A DNA stretch of 64,000 bases from Cyanobium usitatum str. Tous (GTDB taxonomy: Bacteria; Cyanobacteriota; Cyanobacteriia; PCC-6307; Cyanobiaceae): positions 806,001 to 870,000 of the forward strand of contig NZ_OY986431.1 of assembly GCF_963920485.1 (NCBI RefSeq), read 5' to 3'. The stretch's first letter is position 1. Each line of letters begins with the position of its first letter. The notes under the pieces were generated by a model. It saw only the letters and a program-made list of their open reading frames with translations, was not told where the DNA came from and searched no databases. Positions 7,566 to 17,411 of the stretch are shown here, piece after piece. A program made the translations under genes and the position numbers.

Positions 7566-8249
7566 TTAGGGCCTGGCCAGCTGCCTTGAGCCCTGAGGCC
7601 AAGCAACGATGGCCCCCTCTGCCACCAGCCAGACCCTTTCCCCTGGGGAGCAGGGATGGCCTCCGGTCAAGCGGCCGTAGGCGGGCAGGGCTAGGCGCTC
7701 ACTGGTTTGGCAGTAGCTGAAGCAAGGCAACCGCAGCCGATCGGCACCCCGGCCCACCACCGCCACTGGATGCAGGTGGCCGCAGAGGTTGAGCAGGCCC
7801 GCCCGGGGCTCTGGAATGTGGCTCAGCCACCAGGGGCCTAGGGCTTGGGATGGCTCCTGCGGCAGCCCCTCGATCCAGCTGCCCTGCTCATGGTTGCCGC
7901 CGATCAGGCGCAGCTGGCAGCCCAGCAGCTCCGGTAGAGCCGCCAGCTTGGCCCGGAGTTCGCCGGTGAGTCCAAAGCGGCTGTGGATCAGGTCTCCCAG
8001 CACCACCACCTGCTGGGGCACCAGCTGATGGGCCAACTCCAGCAGCCCATTGAGGGTCTCGCCGTCGCCATCGCTGGGCAGGGGAATGCCGTGGGCTTGG
8101 AAGCTTTCCGCTTTGCCTAGATGCAAATCCGCCACTAATAAGGCCCGGCGCTGGGGGTCCCACGCCGCCTTGGCGCCAAGCAGCTGCAGCGGCTGGCCCC
8201 GCCAGTCAAAGCCGACGCTTGCTGCAGCAGCGCCTCGTGCCGAGTTCAA
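7566..8249 (-). CDS. pdeM: Ligase-associated DNA damage response endonuclease PdeM
   Basis: A 227-residue calcineurin-type phosphoesterase with the metal motifs in order: ADLHLGK (DxH), VVLGDLIHSRFG (GD), IGGNHEQG (GNH) and LCGHLHP (GHxH). This pattern, including the AHGIPLPSDG segment, is that of the PdeM family, a partner of the ligase-associated helicase, ATP-dependent ligase and exonuclease, all of which are present at 11161-16289. The most likely start is TTG 8249, overlapping the GST stop; no ATG is available without running deep into the GST gene. Confidence 0.85.
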   Translation of the reverse strand: MNSARGAAAASVGFDWRGQPLQLLGAKAAWDPQRRALLVADLHLGKAESFQAHGIPLPSDGDGETLNGLLELAHQLVPQQVVVLGDLIHSRFGLTGELRAKLAALPELLGCQLRLIGGNHEQGSWIEGLPQEPSQALGPWWLSHIPEPRAGLLNLCGHLHPVAVVGRGADRLRLPCFSYCQTSERLALPAYGRLTGGHPCSPGERVWLVAEGAIVAWPQGSRQLARP

Positions 8250-8860
8250 GCCCTGCCCATGCCGCGTTGGTAGGCCGGTCGGGCCTGGGTGGCGGCGATC
8301 GTGGCCTGCACGTTGGGGTAGGGGGTTAGATCGATCTGGGGAAAGAAGATCGGCAGATAGGCCAGGTAGGCATTTACGGCGCAGTCGGCAACGCTCCAGG
8401 CCGGATCGCCCCAAGGCCCTGCCAGCAGCGAACGGCCGCCTGCCAGCAGCCCATCAAGCACCCCCAGCAACTGGGGGAATTCCCTCTCCCGGTTGGCAGG
8501 CACAAACAGCGCCACTGCCAGGGTGGCATTGGCAAACAGGATCCACTGGTTTGCCAGGCCTCGCTGGGCCGCCACCTCAGCTGCCGTGCCAGTGAATTCG
8601 TTGGCGTGGTGATCGGCTAGGTGCAGGAGGATGGCTCCGCTTTCAAACAGCTGCAGCGGTTGGCCGCCTGGTGCGCGCAAGGTTTCATCCACCAGGGCTG
8701 GCACCTTGGCGAAGGGGTTGATGACACCAAAGCTCTCCCCCTTGTGTTCGCCTGCCTCCATGTCGAGCTGAATCCAGTCGTAGGCAATCCCCTTCTCCTC
8801 CAGATACCAGCGGGGCATGGAAGCGCGGCTGCGGGCGCCGCCGTAGAGCTTCAGGGTCAT
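8246..8860 (-). CDS. Glutathione S-transferase family protein
   Basis: A 204-residue protein with the N-terminal thioredoxin-like GST domain (MTLKLYGGARSRASMPRWYLEEKG, with the Ser/Arg-rich active-site loop, then VPALVD and the ESGAILLHLAD substrate/glutathione motif) and an all-helical C-terminal domain with the SVADCAVNAYLAYLP stretch. It probably conjugates or reduces glutathione adducts; specific substrate unknown. It overlaps the pdeM start by four bases, so the two are probably cotranscribed although GST is not a known part of the ligase-associated set. Confidence 0.88.
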   Translation of the reverse strand: MTLKLYGGARSRASMPRWYLEEKGIAYDWIQLDMEAGEHKGESFGVINPFAKVPALVDETLRAPGGQPLQLFESGAILLHLADHHANEFTGTAAEVAAQRGLANQWILFANATLAVALFVPANREREFPQLLGVLDGLLAGGRSLLAGPWGDPAWSVADCAVNAYLAYLPIFFPQIDLTPYPNVQATIAATQARPAYQRGMGRA

Positions 8861-9067
8861 GGCTTGGTGCTGAGTTGTTTAGGAGTTGCGGTAGAGCCGT
8901 TGGATGTCGGCGATGCTCGCCTTCTCTGCACCGCGGGCTGAGCCCCATCGGGCGCAAAGCCCCAGGTTGCCAGGTGCCAATGGTGCAACCAGCAAAAATG
9001 ACATCAGAAGGTGGATGGCTTAGACACCTCAGCGGCCATAGTTGACTTTGTAGTAGATGCTTCAGCC
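8861..9067. other. Intergenic region without recognised gene
   Basis: About 207 bases between the GST start and a short membrane peptide. It contains the GST promoter (reading left) and the leader of the small peptide (reading right). I see no convincing hairpin with T-run, tRNA or riboswitch. A TTGACT at about 9043 could be a -35-like element for the peptide, without a clear -10. Confidence 0.4.
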
Positions 9068-9148
9068 ATGACCATCGCCTTGTTGATTGCCCTGGCCGGT
9101 TCCTTGGCCCTGATGGCCGTGATCGTCAAGCGGCTTGAGCAGGCTTGA
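9068..9148 (+). CDS. 26-residue single-pass membrane peptide (hypothetical)
   Basis: A short ATG frame whose product is almost wholly hydrophobic for 19 residues, followed by the basic/acidic tail VKRLEQA and a TGA stop. It sits alone between the GST gene and the converging CHASE-GGDEF gene, which ends one base later. The size resembles the tiny transmembrane subunits of thylakoid complexes, but it matches none I know (PetL, PetM, PsbM, PsaI and Psb30 differ). No strong ribosome binding site precedes it. Could be spurious. Confidence 0.35.
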   Translation: MTIALLIALAGSLALMAVIVKRLEQA

Positions 9149-9149
9149 G

Positions 9150-11141
9150 CTAGCCGTTGCTAGAGGCTAAGACCCGGCTCACCTGCACCGGATTGGATTT
9201 GGCCCGCTTAGCGGTGTACATAGCGTTATCAGCTGCTGCTAGCAGCTGTTCGCAGGTGTTGCCATGCTCCGGAAAGCGGGCGACACCGACGCTGGCGGAA
9301 ATCTCAATGACCTTGTCGAGCTCGAGGAAGGCAGCCCGGCTGGCTTCCACCAGTTTCCAGGCCATGGCCTCAAGTTGCTCGGTGCCACCTGCTTGAGGCA
9401 CCAACACCACGAATTCATCACCCCCTTGGCGGCAGAGCAAGTCGCCTTGGCGGATCACGTTGCGGAAGCGATCGGCAACTATCTGCAGTACCCGATCGCC
9501 GATGCCGTGACCAAAACGGTCATTAACGGGCTTGAAGCCGTCGAGATCGAGGTAAAGCAAGCCGACGGCATGGCCGTGGCGTTTTGCCAGGGCTAGATGG
9601 GACTCAAGCTGCTCCATCAGCATGGAGCGATTGGCCAGGCCCGTCAGGATGTCGTGGTTTGCCGCGTACAGCACCGCTTCTTCTCTTTTACGGCGTTTGG
9701 TTACGTCCTGAAGCATTCCCACGTAGTAGCGGGGCTGGAGGTCGTCATCGCGCACGGTTGAAATGTTTAGGTGGTGATTGCGGATCTCGCCGCTACGCAA
9801 CCGATTCCAGATGTCGCCTTCCCAGAAGCCCTTGTTGGTTAGTTCATTCCACATTTCCGCGTAGTACGCATTGTCGTGACGCCCGGATTTGAGCAGGCTG
9901 GCGCGTTGCCCCTTGATTTCTGAGTTTCGGTAGCCGGTGAGTTGGGTGAAGGCGTTGTTGGCCATCAAGATTCGGCCTTCCGGGTTGCTCACGATGATCC
10001 CCTGACCGCTCTCGTCGAACACGGTGCTGGCTAGGGCCCGCTCCTGGGCTGCGGCCTCGCTGATCAAGAGGGCTTGCTTGGTAGCGAGGTGATTTGCCAC
10101 CAGCATGCGAGTGATCAGTGCTGACACCGTGCTGGCGCTTATCCCCATCAACAAATTGATCCAGTAGGCGCTGCTGATTCCGTTGGGTCCCACCAGCCTG
10201 GGGGCCAGTTGCACCCCTACAAGCCAGGTGCGGCCACCAATATTCAGCTTTTCGTAGGTGGGATGACGCAGCTCATTTCGGTTCAGCAGGTTGAGATTGT
10301 CAAAAAGCAAATCTTTGGCGTTTGGTTTGGTGCCATCGAATACGAGCACTCCAGTGCCCACCAGATCGATATTATTAATTGCACTGATGGCACTATTGAC
10401 TACATCGTTCATGCGCAGTGGTGAATAAGCCCACCCTCTTAAAATGCGTTGACTAGCCCCCGGTTGCTGGCCCTTATCGGTGTAGATCGGCACATAAATA
10501 AGAACTCCCCGCTGCAGATCCTCCTCGGTTTCCTGCAGGAGGCGCACCTTGCCGCTCAGGCTGGCATTGCCGGTTTGGGCAGCCCGTTGCATCGCCTGGC
10601 GGCGCACGGGCTCGGCATACATGTCGTAGCCAAAGGCCCGTTGATTGCGCCAGTCGAAGGGCTCAAGGAATTCGATGGCGCTGTAATTGGCTCGCGGACC
10701 GGGAGGGCGCACAACGAATTTTGGGAATCCTTCCTGGCGTAGGCGCTGTTCAAAGGCTGGTAGCTGGGCGCCTGGTATCCAGCTGCTGAATCCCACCCCC
10801 TGAACTCCATCTAGCTGGCCGGTGTTGAGGGCGAGGGTTTCGTAAAAGTTTCTGAATTCATCACGTTTTACCTCAGTGGATGCATTAAACAAACCCACCA
10901 CTGCGGCCAGCATTGTGATGTCAATTTCCAGCTTGCTGCGCAAGGTATCTATCAGGTTGTCGAGCAATGTGCTTTCGATGCGCTGATGTTCTTGGCTACC
11001 AAATCGTCGGGTCTGCTCGCTGACGCCGGCAGTTGTAATTAGCCCTAGCGCTAGTACCAGCCAGGGCATCATTATTACGGCATCCCTGGTGCCTAGGCGC
11101 CTGCGGAGCCGCTGTATCAGGATCCGGGGCCCTACCGGCAT
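9150..11141 (-). CDS. CHASE-PAS-GGDEF diguanylate cyclase
   Basis: A 663-residue signalling protein. Order: N-terminal membrane helix (about residues 20-40, MMPWLVLALGLITTAGV), periplasmic CHASE sensor (about 50-280), second membrane helix (about 320-340, YWINLLMGISASTVSAL), PAS domain (about 370-480, with SNPEGRILMANNAFTQLTGY) and GGDEF domain with intact GGDEF. An RxxD product-inhibition site (RQGD) lies exactly five residues before it. No EAL or HD-GYP domain follows, so it should make cyclic-di-GMP. ATG 11141 avoids overlap with the helicase gene ending at 11161. Ligand unknown. Confidence 0.9.
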   Translation of the reverse strand: MPVGPRILIQRLRRRLGTRDAVIMMPWLVLALGLITTAGVSEQTRRFGSQEHQRIESTLLDNLIDTLRSKLEIDITMLAAVVGLFNASTEVKRDEFRNFYETLALNTGQLDGVQGVGFSSWIPGAQLPAFEQRLRQEGFPKFVVRPPGPRANYSAIEFLEPFDWRNQRAFGYDMYAEPVRRQAMQRAAQTGNASLSGKVRLLQETEEDLQRGVLIYVPIYTDKGQQPGASQRILRGWAYSPLRMNDVVNSAISAINNIDLVGTGVLVFDGTKPNAKDLLFDNLNLLNRNELRHPTYEKLNIGGRTWLVGVQLAPRLVGPNGISSAYWINLLMGISASTVSALITRMLVANHLATKQALLISEAAAQERALASTVFDESGQGIIVSNPEGRILMANNAFTQLTGYRNSEIKGQRASLLKSGRHDNAYYAEMWNELTNKGFWEGDIWNRLRSGEIRNHHLNISTVRDDDLQPRYYVGMLQDVTKRRKREEAVLYAANHDILTGLANRSMLMEQLESHLALAKRHGHAVGLLYLDLDGFKPVNDRFGHGIGDRVLQIVADRFRNVIRQGDLLCRQGGDEFVVLVPQAGGTEQLEAMAWKLVEASRAAFLELDKVIEISASVGVARFPEHGNTCEQLLAAADNAMYTAKRAKSNPVQVSRVLASSNG

Positions 11142-11160
11142 TGCTGCAATTTTTGCGTAT

Positions 11161-13656
11161 CTACACCCTAGGCCCACCTTCTTCGGCCCGCTCTGCATCC
11201 TGGCGCACCCGTTCCAGACGCTGAAGTAGCGACTCATTACTCATCCGGTTGCTTAGGCGCTCGGCTAGCAAGGGGAAGGCCAGGGGGCCTGGCCGGGCGG
11301 TGCGCTCCAGCTGCAACCTGCATTGCTGCAGCCGCTGCAAGGCCCCGGTGATCCGGGGCAGATCAAGCTGTTCGCTGAGCACTTCGGATCTGGCCTGGGC
11401 TAATAGGCGGTTGGCGGGTTCGTGGCGGCTGAATACGTCGTAGAGCAGGGCGGCACTGATCTGCAGTTGACCGCCTGATTTGGACTGGCCGGGGTAGCCG
11501 TTCAGCACCAAGCCACTGATCTGGGCAATGGCGCGAAAACGCCTCCGGCATAGCTCTGAGAGGTTGATTGCCTGCTCCAGGTCGTCCTTGAGATCGCTGT
11601 CATCGAGCAGTTCTTCGGCATGTAGCTCAAACAGCTCTTCAAATGGATAGTTTTTCGGCGCCAGCAGTTCAAAGCCGTAGTCGTTTACCGACACCGTGAT
11701 CGTGCTGGCTTGGTGGCGGGCCAGGCGCCAGGCCCAGAGAAAGCCCAGGCCCTCATGCACAAAGCGCCCTTCAAATGGATAGACATAGAGGTGGCTGCCC
11801 TCGCGGCTGTTGCACACCTCCACCAGCAATTCGTGCTGCCTTGGTAGCCGGGAGAGCTGCACCTGGCGCTGCAGCAGGGGCTCGAGGGCCACAAGTTCGG
11901 GGCTATCGAGCTTGGCTTCCCCGGCTAGGGCGCGGGCGCAACGATCCACCTCGGCGCGCAGGTGGCGGCTGAGCAGGTCGGAGAGGGCCATCTGGCCGCC
12001 TGCCCAGGCGGGCACGGTGTTGCTTTTTTTGGAGCTGGCCTTCACCTGGGCCGTCATCTCCCGCAGCCGCACAAACTCCAGCTGCCGGCCCGCGAAGAAA
12101 AACACATCGCCGGCCTTGAGCCGGCCGATGAAGGCCTCTTCCACATGGCCGAGCACGGCACCGCGCACAAAGCGCACGGTTACGGCCCGGTCGGCGGTGA
12201 TGGTGCCGATGTGCAGGCGATGCATCCGGGCGATCGCCTTTTCCTTCACCAGAAAGAGCTCGCCTTCGCGCTCGAGCTTGCGGTAGCGCGGATAGGCGCT
12301 AAGGCAGTCGCCGCCGTGCTCAAGGAAGCGCAGACACCACTGCCAGTCGCTATCGCTGAGCTGGCGGTAGCTCCAGGCGCTGCGCACCGCCGCCAGGGCC
12401 TGGGCCGGTTCGAAGCCCGGGCCGCAGGCCAGGCTGGTGAGGTGCTGGAGCAGCACGTCGATCGGGGCGTTTGGCTGGCGCCTTTCCTCCACCAAACCCG
12501 CGGCCAGGCCGCGCCGCAGGGCGCTGAGCTCAAGCAATTCCAGGGCATGGGTGGGCATGAACAGCACCTGGGAGGTGCCGCCGGGGAGGTGGGCGCTGCG
12601 GCCAGCTCGCTGCAGCAGCCGGGCCACATTTTTGGCAGAGCCGATCTGCACTACCCGCTCCACCGGCTGGAAATCCACGCCCAGATCAAGGGAGCTGGTG
12701 CACACCACCCAACGCAGAGAGCCTGCTTTAACCCCGGCTTCGATCGCTTCGCGCTCAGCCCGGTCGATGGCGCTGTGGTGGAGCGCTAACGCGTGTTCCA
12801 TTTCCGGGCAGGCGTAGCGGAGGCATTGGTGCCAACGCTCTGCCTGGTTGCGAGTGTTGGTGAACAGCAGGGTGGAGACGCCGGGCTCCAGGGCCGCCAC
12901 CAGATCCTCATAGCGGCGCAAACCCAGGTGGCCGGCCCAGGGAAAGCCATCGATCGACTCGGGCAGCAGGCTACGGATCTCCGTGGCCCTGGCAATCGCT
13001 GCTGTGATCAGGCGGGGTTCGCTGCCGGTACCGACGGCGCTGCGGGCCGCCTCATCGAGATTGCCGATCGTGGCGCTGATCGCCCAGGTGCGCAGGCCGG
13101 GCCGCTGGCTGCGCAGCCAGCTCAGGCAGAGCTCGGTTTGGCTGCCCCGCTTGCTGCCCATCAACTCGTGCCACTCATCGAGCACCACCGCCTGCAGGCC
13201 GGCAAACAGGGCAAGGGCCTTGGGGTTGGCCAGCAGCAGGCTGAGCGATTCCGGCGTGGTGATCAGGATTTCGGGTGGGCTGCGCAGCTGCTTGCCGCGC
13301 TCGTAGCTGGAGGTGTCGCCATTGCGGATACCCACCCGCAGCGGCCAGCCCATCGCCGCGACCGGCTGCTGGATCGCCAGGGCCAGATCGCGGCTCAGGG
13401 CCCGCAGGGGGGTGAGATAGAGCAGGCGCAGGCCGGGTCTGGGCTCGGCCAGGAGCTCGGCAATCGGAGCCATCACGGCGGCATAGGTCTTGCCCGAGCC
13501 GGTGGGCACCTGGATCAGGCCGCTCTCGCCGGCCAGGTAGGCCTGCCAGCACTGGCGTTGGAACGGCAGGGGCGTCCAGCCCTGAAGCTCAAACCAGGCT
13601 TCGATCGGGGCCAGGAGATCGCAGGTCTTTGCTTGGCTCCGGGGCTTGCGGCTCAT
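11161..13656 (-). CDS. Ligase-associated DNA damage response DEXH-box helicase (Lhr-like)
   Basis: An 831-residue superfamily 2 helicase. Walker A PTGSGKT at residues 51-57, a DEWH box at 160-163, SATIGNLDEA (motif III), and GRSAHLPGGTSQV (motif VI region) are visible, followed by the Lhr winged-helix/C-terminal region (LVEVCNSREGSHLYVYPFEG). This is the short, ligase-associated Lhr-Core form, which unwinds DNA or RNA-DNA hybrids 3'-5'. It overlaps the DNA ligase stop by four bases, showing translational coupling: exonuclease, ligase, helicase in one operon. Confidence 0.92.
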   Translation of the reverse strand: MSRKPRSQAKTCDLLAPIEAWFELQGWTPLPFQRQCWQAYLAGESGLIQVPTGSGKTYAAVMAPIAELLAEPRPGLRLLYLTPLRALSRDLALAIQQPVAAMGWPLRVGIRNGDTSSYERGKQLRSPPEILITTPESLSLLLANPKALALFAGLQAVVLDEWHELMGSKRGSQTELCLSWLRSQRPGLRTWAISATIGNLDEAARSAVGTGSEPRLITAAIARATEIRSLLPESIDGFPWAGHLGLRRYEDLVAALEPGVSTLLFTNTRNQAERWHQCLRYACPEMEHALALHHSAIDRAEREAIEAGVKAGSLRWVVCTSSLDLGVDFQPVERVVQIGSAKNVARLLQRAGRSAHLPGGTSQVLFMPTHALELLELSALRRGLAAGLVEERRQPNAPIDVLLQHLTSLACGPGFEPAQALAAVRSAWSYRQLSDSDWQWCLRFLEHGGDCLSAYPRYRKLEREGELFLVKEKAIARMHRLHIGTITADRAVTVRFVRGAVLGHVEEAFIGRLKAGDVFFFAGRQLEFVRLREMTAQVKASSKKSNTVPAWAGGQMALSDLLSRHLRAEVDRCARALAGEAKLDSPELVALEPLLQRQVQLSRLPRQHELLVEVCNSREGSHLYVYPFEGRFVHEGLGFLWAWRLARHQASTITVSVNDYGFELLAPKNYPFEELFELHAEELLDDSDLKDDLEQAINLSELCRRRFRAIAQISGLVLNGYPGQSKSGGQLQISAALLYDVFSRHEPANRLLAQARSEVLSEQLDLPRITGALQRLQQCRLQLERTARPGPLAFPLLAERLSNRMSNESLLQRLERVRQDAERAEEGGPRV

Positions 13657-15296
13657 GGCGGGGCTGCCAGCAGGGCTAGAGCCGTGGCCAGGCTGTCGGC
13701 CTCGTGGGCGGGTTTGTCTTGGCGCCAGCGGGCGATGCGGGGGAAGCGCACTGCGATGCCGCTTTTATGGCGGCTGGAGCGCTGCAGCCCCTCAAAGGCC
13801 AGCTCAAAAACCTGCAGGGGCTGCACGGCCCGCACCGGCCCGAAGCGTTCAGTGGTGTGGCTGCGGATCCAGCGATCCAGCGCCGTGATCTCGCCATCGT
13901 TGAGGCCGGAGTAGGCCTTGGCGAAACTCACCAACTCGCCCTCGGCCCCGGGTTGGCGATCCCAGAGCCCAAAGGTGTAATCGGTGAATAGGTTGGCGCG
14001 GCGGCCACTGCCGGCCTGGGCGTAGAGCAGCACCGCATCGAGGGTGTATGGGTCGCGCTTGTGCTTCCACCACTGGCCCCGTTTGCGGCCGGCCAGGTAG
14101 GGCGAGGCGAGGCCCTTGAGCATCAGCCCTTCGGCGGCTGCGCTTGCGGCCTGCTGGCGCAGCGGCTCCAGCTGCTCCCAGGCCGTTAGGGCTAGGCGGG
14201 GGGATAGGCGCAGGAGCCCGGCTGCCGGGGTGGGTGTCGTTTCAGGCAGCTCTTGGAGCAGGTCTTCCAGGGCTGAACGGCGCTGGCTCAGGGGCCGCTG
14301 GCGCTGGTCGTCGCCCCCCAGCTCCAGCAGGTCGTAGGCCACGAAGGCTGCCGGACACTCAGCCAACAGCTTGCGGCCTGGTGCCTTGCGGCCCAGGCGG
14401 CGCTGCAGCTGGGCGAAGGGTGCCGGCTGGTCGGAGCCGGCGTGCCAAACCAGGATCTCGCCGTCGAGCACGGTGCCGTTGGCCAGGCAGCCTGCCGCTG
14501 CGAGCAATTCGGGGAAGGCAGCACCTATTAATTCTTCGCCGCGGCTCCACAAAAAAACCTCGTTGGCGCGGCGGATCAGCTGGCCGCGGATGCCGTCGAA
14601 CTTCCACTCCACCAGCCATTCGCTGGCGGGGCCGGCCGGCTGCTGCTCTAAAGGCGATGCCAGGTAAAAGGGGTAGGGGCGGCTGGGCACAGCTTCGGCT
14701 ACATCGGCTGGGGCCAGCAGGGCGGTGAGGGCGGCAGCACTGGGCTTGAAGCCGCCCATCAGCCGGTGCTGCAGCTGCGCTTCCTCCAGCCCGCTGAGGC
14801 GTGCCAGGGCACGCACCACCAGCCCCTGGGCCACGCCCACCCGCAGGCCGCCGGTGAGCAATTTGTTGGCTACCAGGAGTTCGGCCGGGCTCAGGCCCCG
14901 CCAGAGGTGGCGCACCGCCTCGGCCTGCTCGGCGCCATCAAGGGCGGCGGCGGCGGGCAGCAGCTGCTCCATCCAGGTGTGTAGGGAGTGGTGCAGGGGT
15001 TCGCTCGCCCCAGCTCCCACCTGGGCCCAAAGCAGGGCGATGGTTTCGGCCGAATCGCCCACCTGGGCGTAGCAGTCGTCGAACAACCACTCCGGCAGGG
15101 GGGAGCCCTCCAGGCAGATTTGGCGCAGCCGCCGTCCGGTGATTAGGCGCTTGCCCTGCTTGCCGAGCAGCACGTGCAGGGCCCAGGCGCCATCGGCTGC
15201 ATCAACACCACTGAAGTAGGCGACGAGGGCATCCACCCGGGCCTGGGTGCCGCTGCTGGCGTCAAGGGCTCTGTAGAGATCGGCGAAGCGACGCAT
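13653..15296 (-). CDS. ATP-dependent DNA ligase (repair-associated)
   Basis: A 547-residue ligase. After an N-terminal DNA-binding domain (residues 1-200) comes the adenylation motif VEWKFDGIRGQ with the nucleotidyl Lys at residue 232, then motif III-like VAYDLLELGGDD, motif IV region GLMLKGLASPY and motif V KHKRDPYTLDAVL. The C-terminal OB fold follows. This is the bacterial LigB/LigC-like enzyme of the ligase-associated repair set, distinct from the NAD-dependent replicative LigA. It lies between the exonuclease (six bases upstream) and the helicase (four-base overlap). Confidence 0.93.
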   Translation of the reverse strand: MRRFADLYRALDASSGTQARVDALVAYFSGVDAADGAWALHVLLGKQGKRLITGRRLRQICLEGSPLPEWLFDDCYAQVGDSAETIALLWAQVGAGASEPLHHSLHTWMEQLLPAAAALDGAEQAEAVRHLWRGLSPAELLVANKLLTGGLRVGVAQGLVVRALARLSGLEEAQLQHRLMGGFKPSAAALTALLAPADVAEAVPSRPYPFYLASPLEQQPAGPASEWLVEWKFDGIRGQLIRRANEVFLWSRGEELIGAAFPELLAAAGCLANGTVLDGEILVWHAGSDQPAPFAQLQRRLGRKAPGRKLLAECPAAFVAYDLLELGGDDQRQRPLSQRRSALEDLLQELPETTPTPAAGLLRLSPRLALTAWEQLEPLRQQAASAAAEGLMLKGLASPYLAGRKRGQWWKHKRDPYTLDAVLLYAQAGSGRRANLFTDYTFGLWDRQPGAEGELVSFAKAYSGLNDGEITALDRWIRSHTTERFGPVRAVQPLQVFELAFEGLQRSSRHKSGIAVRFPRIARWRQDKPAHEADSLATALALLAAPP

Positions 15297-15302
15297 GCCC
15301 GC

Positions 15303-16289
15303 TCAGGCCCCTAGCGGTTCGGCGCTGATCCCTTCCACCTCGCTCAGGTAGCGGGCCAGGCCGTCGCTGTTGCCGTGGGTCACGTACACCTGCCGGGCGC
15401 CGCTCTGCTTGACGCTCTGGATCAGGCCAGGCCAGTCGGCGTGGTCTGAGATTACGAAGCCGCGCTCATAGCCGCGGCGGCGACGAGCGCCGCGCACGGC
15501 CATCCAGCCGCTCACAAAGGCCGTTTGCGGCAGCTTGAAGCGCTTCATCCACAGCGAGCGGTGGGCTGAGGGCGGCGCGATCACGAGGCGGCCCGCCAGC
15601 GATTCCCCCTTGGCAATTGCGCTCACCGGCAGGGTGGGCGGCAGCCGCACCCCCGCCTCCCGGTAGGCCGGCATCAGCGCTTCCACGGCACCGTGCAACA
15701 GGATCTCGTCTTTGACACCGATGGCTGCGAGTTCGGCCAGCAGCCGCTGGGCCTTACCGAAGGCATAGGCAAACAGGATCGAGGTCCGCTCCGGCGCCGC
15801 CTGCCACCAGCTCAGGATCTCGCCGGCCACCTCGGCGCCGCTCTGCCAGCGATAGATCGGCAGGCCGAAGGTGGCCTCAGTAATAAATACGTCTGCCTGC
15901 ACCGGCTCGAACGGAGCGCAACTCGGGTCGGCGCAGCGCTTGTAGTCGCCGCTCACAAGCCAGCTCTCACCGCCCGCCTCCAGCCGGATTTGGGCGCTGC
16001 CCAGCACATGCCCGGCGCTGTGAAACGACACCCGGGCCTCACCAATTCGATGGGGGGCGCCGTAGTCGACCGGGATCAGGTTGATCGTGGCCCCCAGGCG
16101 CTGCCGCAGGATCGCTTCGCTGGCGCCCACCGCCCAATATTCGCCGCAGCCGGGCCGGGCGTGGTCGGCGTGGGCGTGGGTGATCAGGGCCCGGGGCACC
16201 GGCCCCACAGGATCGATCCAGGCTGCCGCCGCCGGGCAGTAGAGCCCCTGGGGGGTGTGCTCCAGCAGGCTGCCGGTGGGGAGGGGCAT
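15303..16289 (-). CDS. Ligase-associated DNA damage response exonuclease (metallo-beta-lactamase fold)
   Basis: A 328-residue protein with the beta-lactamase metal motif HAHADH (residues 38-43), a later FHSAGHVLGSAQI and VSGDYK, then a beta-CASP-like region and the C-terminal VYVTHG. It resembles SNM1-type nucleases and is the first gene of the ligase-associated operon, whose other members are the ligase, the helicase and PdeM. Nuclease polarity is not evident from sequence. A perfect TGTACAG/CTGTACA palindrome lies 114 bases upstream of its ATG. Confidence 0.9.
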   Translation of the reverse strand: MPLPTGSLLEHTPQGLYCPAAAAWIDPVGPVPRALITHAHADHARPGCGEYWAVGASEAILRQRLGATINLIPVDYGAPHRIGEARVSFHSAGHVLGSAQIRLEAGGESWLVSGDYKRCADPSCAPFEPVQADVFITEATFGLPIYRWQSGAEVAGEILSWWQAAPERTSILFAYAFGKAQRLLAELAAIGVKDEILLHGAVEALMPAYREAGVRLPPTLPVSAIAKGESLAGRLVIAPPSAHRSLWMKRFKLPQTAFVSGWMAVRGARRRRGYERGFVISDHADWPGLIQSVKQSGARQVYVTHGNSDGLARYLSEVEGISAEPLGA

Positions 16290-16457
16290 GGAATGGGTGA
16301 AATCCCAGTGAAGTCTGGCGCTTTGGTTGAGGGGCCAAGCCCACCTGCCGAGCTCGCGTAGTTAGCGGCTCGGTGGTGATTGTTTAGGAGTGTGCGGGAG
16401 TCTGTACAGCTGTACAAAACCCCGCAGGCGGCAATCAAGGACCAACCCCTAGGGGCC
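16290..16457. other. Intergenic region carrying the repair-operon control site
   Basis: This 168-base gap separates the nadA stop from the exonuclease start on the same strand. Besides the LexA-like palindrome it holds a CCCCTAGGGG inverted repeat (16446-16455) right behind nadA, too short and without a T-run to be called a terminator. Confidence 0.5.
16403..16416. promoter_or_regulatory. Putative LexA/SOS operator, perfect 14-bp palindrome
   Basis: TGTACAGCTGTACA is identical to its reverse complement and contains GTAC-N4-GTAC, the core of the cyanobacterial LexA box described as RGTAC-N3-DGTWC-B; the outermost bases deviate. It stands in the promoter region of the exonuclease-ligase-helicase operon, exactly where an SOS operator would make sense. 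Function is inferred. Confidence 0.6.
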
Positions 16458-17411
16458 TCAGCGGCTCATTGCCAGCATCCGCTCAATCGGTGCCAGGGCC
16501 CTTAGCCGCAGCGCCTCATCCATCACGATCTCTGGCTCCATTAGATCGAGGCACTGCCACACTTTTTCCAGGGTGTTGAGCCGCATGTAGGGGCAGGCGT
16601 TGCAGCTGCAGCCATCGCTGCCGGGCACCTCATAGAAGCTCTTGCCGGGAACCTTCAGCCGCATCTGGTGCAGGATCCCCGGCTCGGTGAGCACGATGAA
16701 GCTGGTGGCGGGGCTGGCTTCGGAGCGGCGCAGCAGGGCGCTGGTGGAGCCAATGAAGTCGGCCAAGTCCAGCAGGTGTTGCTGGCACTCGGGGTGGGCC
16801 AGCACCTCAGCCTCCGAGTGCTCGAGCTTTAGCTGCAGCAGGGCTTGCTCGCTGAAGGTTTCATGCACGATGCAGCTGCCTGGCCAGAGGGTGAGCTGGC
16901 GGCCGCTCTGGCGCTGCACCCAGCGGCCCAGGTTTTGGTCGGGGGCAAACAGGATCGGCCGGTCGGCTGGCAGCTGCTTCACCAGATCCACCGCGTTACT
17001 GCTGGTGCAGATCAGGTCGCTGAGAGCTTTCACCGCCGCCGAGCAGTTGATGTAGCTCACGGCGATGTGGTCGGGGTGCTCGGCGCGGAAGGCGGCAAAC
17101 GCTTTGGCTGGGCAGGCATCCGCCAACGAGCAGCCGGCCTCCAGATCTGGCAGCAGCACGGTTTTAGCCGGGCTGAGGATCTTGGCGGTCTCCGCCATGA
17201 AGTGGACGCCGCAAAAAACGATCACCTCGGCGTCGGTGGCGGCGGCTTTGCGCGAGAGCTCCAGCGAGTCGCCGATGAAGTCGGCGATGTCCTGAACGGC
17301 TGCGTCTTGGTAGTAGTGCGCCAGGATCACGGCCTTGCGCTCCTGCTTCAGGGCGCTGATCGCGGCGGGCAGATCGTGCGGTGCGTGGTTCTGGGTGGCG
17401 GTGAAAACCAA
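16458..17411 (-). CDS. nadA: Quinolinate synthase
   Basis: A 317-residue [4Fe-4S] enzyme that condenses iminoaspartate with dihydroxyacetone phosphate in NAD synthesis. Recognisable are [41 protein letters not shown], the GCSLADACP segment and the C-terminal cysteine motif CSCNACPYM. The cluster cysteines of the family are present. It starts at ATG 17411 and diverges from the phosphoesterase gene at 17459. Confidence 0.96.

Follow-up and report, generated by a model that had tools for sequence, protein, structure and literature searches.

This locus raises the question of whether four genes of a DNA repair set, lying on one strand of a Cyanobium genome and partly separated by genes of other families, belong together as one unit, and, if so, how they came to be arranged as they are. 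The window, meaning the whole stretch of 64,000 nucleotides that was analysed (G000:C1:806001-870000), is part of a 2.66 Mb genome assembled as a single contig. We consider it very probable that the set is a known one, inherited from a compact operon of exonuclease, ligase, helicase and PdeM (EXO-LIG-HEL-PdeM) placed between nadA and CBS/pgsA, and later split by bystander genes.

The four repair genes and their packing

An earlier note on this DNA had claimed a complete ligase-associated set, and this is borne out: the four minus-strand ORFs lie at the coordinates it gave and all exceed the curated NCBIfam cut-offs of the ligase-associated DNA damage response families. The features of the locus are:

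7566..8249, minus strand: PdeM/MPE calcineurin-like nuclease (TIGR04123, 180 bits, cut-off 150), homologue of 6nvp
8246..8860, minus strand: GST-like gene (Pfam GST_N), adjoining PdeM; putative bystander
9150..11141, minus strand: CHASE-PAS-GGDEF protein (Pfam CHASE, PAS, GGDEF), with an ORF that reaches 11237; putative bystander
11161..13656, minus strand: Lhr-Core-type DEXH helicase (HEL), 831 aa (TIGR04121, 1059 bits, cut-off 850)
13653..15296, minus strand: ATP-dependent DNA ligase (LIG), ligase-associated (LigB) class, 547 aa (TIGR04120, 574 bits, cut-off 400), motif KFDG
15303..16289, minus strand: ligase-associated DNA damage response exonuclease (EXO), metallo-beta-lactamase fold, 328 aa (TIGR04122, 456 bits, cut-off 325), motif HAHADH
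16403..16416, no strand assigned: LexA-box-like palindrome TGTACAGCTGTACA, 113 nt upstream of the exonuclease start
16458..17411, minus strand: nadA (NCBIfam NadA), conserved upstream boundary of the locus

The ligase contains the Pfam domains DNA_ligase_A_N, _M and _C, and the helicase DEAD, Helicase_C, WH_Lhr and DEAD_assoc. The latter has the RecA1, RecA2, winged-helix and Domain 4 organization of Lhr-Core (bLhr) proteins, without a long C-terminal extension, and the solved structure nearest to it by sequence is 5v9x. Catalytic motifs, read from the translations, are intact in all four proteins, including PTGSGKT and DEWH in the helicase, and DLHLGK, GDLIHS, GNHE and GHLHP in PdeM, which align with those of the solved Pseudomonas putida nuclease MPE (6nvp, E 5e-28). 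Judged by its gene families, the locus is a member of the known LigB/Lhr-Core/MPE/metallo-beta-lactamase cluster.

The tight three-gene run that had been described is also present. The ligase stop and the helicase start share an ATGA (13653-13656), which gives a 4-nt overlap, and six bases lie between the exonuclease (15303) and the ligase (15296). EXO, LIG and HEL are thus contiguous, and PdeM, also on this strand, follows after about 2.9 kb. The likelier start of PdeM is the TTG at 8249, which would overlap the GST stop as TTGA (8246-8249); the 282-aa ORF extending to 8414 is most likely over-extended, because the family match begins only at residue 70. For the GGDEF gene the likelier start is the ATG at 11141, 19 nt past the helicase end, the longest ORF (to 11237) overlapping the end of the helicase.

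The genome holds 32 instances of GTACN4GTWC, the core of the palindrome upstream of the exonuclease, which corresponds to about 0.002 expected instances in a gap of 168 nt; the site had been noticed before testing. In this genome the same core also precedes recA, an S24 peptidase gene and rmuC, with LexA-box-like sites at G000:C1 1977000-1980000, 1355000-1358500 and 1437206-1440217, respectively (L226, L229, L216). The outer bases of TGTACAGCTGTACA differ from the LexA consensus, and none of the 101 other loci examined has the exact core upstream of EXO. For these reasons, and because the site was singled out beforehand, SOS control of the set would be at most strain-specific; SOS control shared with relatives appears unlikely, as the box is not conserved among them.

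Gene order, loss and the intervening genes

Comparison of neighbourhoods, which the earlier note had proposed as a check, reveals that the order is not scattered: in 80 of the 84 set-bearing family genomes the ligase comes before the helicase, both on one contig and one strand, and in the other four the genes are split over contigs. The four genes follow the order EXO-LIG-HEL-PdeM within 20 kb of each other in 37/84 genomes, and are compact in 8. The usual frame in the family is nadA-EXO-LIG-HEL-...-PdeM-c8-CBS-pgsA, in which nadA precedes EXO throughout the family, and also borders the empty sites; c8 has no Pfam match and is absent from the window itself. In some genera, g3 and g4 among them, PdeM is far from the other three genes. 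The GST-PdeM pair of G127 and G079 is shifted to the opposite end of the locus, abutting EXO. Named genomes from the Proteobacteria, Bdellovibrio, SAR324 and Myxococcota have the compact arrangement, as does Prochlorococcus, and on this comparison we regard compact EXO-LIG-HEL-PdeM as the ancestral order.

In several genera an opposite-strand island of about 3.8 kb recurs between ligase and helicase (L051, L052, L067, L071 and others). It was considered as a fifth repair gene and rejected, since in the loci read it lies on the opposite strand and holds a spermidine-synthase-like ORF (a label given by eye, with no family search) together with others.

EXO, LIG and HEL occur together in the same 84 of 131 family genomes, 83 of which also have PdeM, and the remaining 47 have none of the four. 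The sole exception is G052, where the other three genes and GST are kept with no PdeM detectable after GST, and because of this PdeM may be dispensable at times. Several genera include both states, with set-free G024 in g1, G121 in g4, G019 in g20, and G008 and G114 in g9, which points to repeated loss of the whole set within the family. In one same-genus strain the whole block is gone; the empty sites of G024 and G023 read nadA-c8-CBS-pgsA, with nothing remaining between, and in G019 a PdeM remnant persists beside c8-CBS-pgsA. Genomes with only part of the set are almost absent, which is consistent with one pathway in which no component is of much use without the others.

The genes could instead be co-located without sharing a pathway, for example through common regulation of general repair genes, and the often loose spacing of the loci is in keeping with this. 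We consider it unlikely, since the four genes were lost together from interleaved positions, and all four are kept even where they are unlinked: in the distant cyanobacteria G285, G141 and G184 each exceeds its cut-off and they lie far apart. All four are also present in G324 (L083, L084, L172), with ligase and PdeM each split in two frames, by decay or assembly error, and exonuclease and helicase apparently whole. A further genome, G099, has two PdeM matches above the cut-off, on contigs C22 and C14. That the set should be a surprise here, as one found mostly in proteobacteria, does not hold, given that about two thirds of the sampled family genomes carry it, and that the ligase and its operon had already been reported from Prochlorococcus (PMC10140301).

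The earlier note had left open whether the GST and CHASE-PAS-GGDEF genes are recent insertions or functional partners. GST adjoins PdeM in seven genera (g1, g4, g6, g17, g21, g26 and g31) and is therefore not a recent arrival; the GGDEF gene adjoins HEL in certain strains from six genera, and only fragments of it are left in G068 and G052. Relative to the compact ancestral order, both appear to have been inserted between helicase and PdeM, so that insertion stands, and its recency, as regards GST, does not. As working partners they would tie repair to redox state or c-di-GMP, and their common strand with the repair genes, the probable GGDEF start 19 nt past the helicase stop, the overlap of the GST stop with the likely PdeM start and the recurrent GST-PdeM pairing all speak for this. 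However, G028, which has none of the four repair genes, retains both GGDEF and GST, and G009, equally devoid of the four, retains GST; many genomes carry the four repair genes without GST or GGDEF, and in G068 and G052 the GGDEF gene decays while most or all repair genes persist. A partnership is thus very unlikely, and the retention in G028 and G009 indicates that the two genes are bystanders able to outlive the repair genes.

A 26-codon ORF, MTIALLIALAGSLALMAVIVKRLEQA, lies on the plus strand at 9068-9148 of the window. It is conserved in 27 related loci, occurs also near nadA in set-free genomes, and has no match in NCBIfam, Pfam or solved structures.

Origin of the set and the Prochlorococcus copy

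In single-gene trees, the family without Prochlorococcus forms one clade, with support of 100 for EXO and 97 for HEL, and weaker values for LIG (91) and PdeM (42). The four-protein concatenated tree unites the family and Prochlorococcus (100), and all cyanobacteria including Leptolyngbya-like ones (95). The EXO and LIG trees alone show no single cyanobacterial clade, and such a clade is not rejected (p-AU 0.57 for EXO and 0.11 for LIG). These trees allow the four genes a single common history in cyanobacteria, and identify no donor, nested proteobacterial or other.

The idea that the set was gained as a block is therefore kept as regards the shared history, which the proposed phylogeny of the four proteins allows, and given up as regards its source and date, the set being old and family-wide, with no nested proteobacterial donor. 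A recent gain from a proteobacterium would explain why the compact order is the same as in Proteobacteria, and why the exonuclease exceeds its cut-off in only 4 of about 250 cyanobacteria sampled outside the family, namely G285, G141, G184 and G324. Nevertheless, the set occurs family-wide at one locus, with sequences diverged among genera, and the family proteins form their own clade, not nested in Proteobacteria. We reject such a gain as a recent event on account of the single locus and the separate clade, and consider it extremely improbable; an ancient transfer into the ancestor of the family may still have taken place.

Three other candidates were rejected. As to spread by phage, phage records gave no match and viral contigs a single distant one; as to spread by plasmids, 77 plasmid records hold exonuclease relatives, all below 60% identity. 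An anti-phage role is not indicated by PADLOC, whose only matches are helicase models in the helicase, with none in the other three proteins.

The four-gene set of Prochlorococcus and its near kin (L042, L076-L079, L150, L154, L159, L161, L162, L164) is compact and divergent, with a GC content of 28-29% in the five loci measured. The genes are the same four, in compact EXO-LIG-HEL-PdeM order, but the proteins are about 33-52% identical, nadA was not found beside the operon, and its position in the tree is outside the Synechococcus/Cyanobium clade. Marine Synechococcus are the expected kin of Prochlorococcus. Forcing the two together is rejected (p-AU 1.75e-7, and 0.004 with four-state recoding), a placement to be read with long branches and base composition in mind. 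Prochlorococcus seems to have acquired its set separately. The ligase of marine Synechococcus WH8102 is listed as an early loss in Prochlorococcus (PMC3940434), and we give an even chance to an early loss of the family set there, followed by uptake of all four genes as a compact copy from a lineage outside the sample. If this is true, the block moves and functions as a unit even in streamlined genomes.

A possible pathway and its meaning

The literature on the set (PMC7437997, PMC8301817, PMC10140301) describes Lhr-Core homologues as 3'-to-5' single-stranded DNA translocases and helicases, and an MPE homologue as a Mn-dependent single-stranded DNA endonuclease; MPE is near bLhr in 276 of 319 genomes (PMC8301817). 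By analogy with these homologues, Lhr would open damaged or stalled DNA, PdeM would then cut the exposed single strand, the exonuclease would trim the ends, a polymerase would fill in, and the ligase would seal last. The P. putida Lhr-Core/MPE cluster of Ejaz and Shuman (2018, 2019), as cited in these three articles, resembles the present locus in its four families, conserved MPE motifs and operon-like packing. In contrast, here GGDEF and GST part PdeM from the other three genes.

The set itself is not new, being of an already known kind, including from Prochlorococcus. What is new is the comparative evidence for the four genes as one unit with bystanders. The family provides natural experiments, in which the whole set has been lost repeatedly with its neighbours kept, and the order varies while the set persists. 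These patterns of loss and order mark the genes that belong together, and give set-bearing and set-free relatives for comparison.
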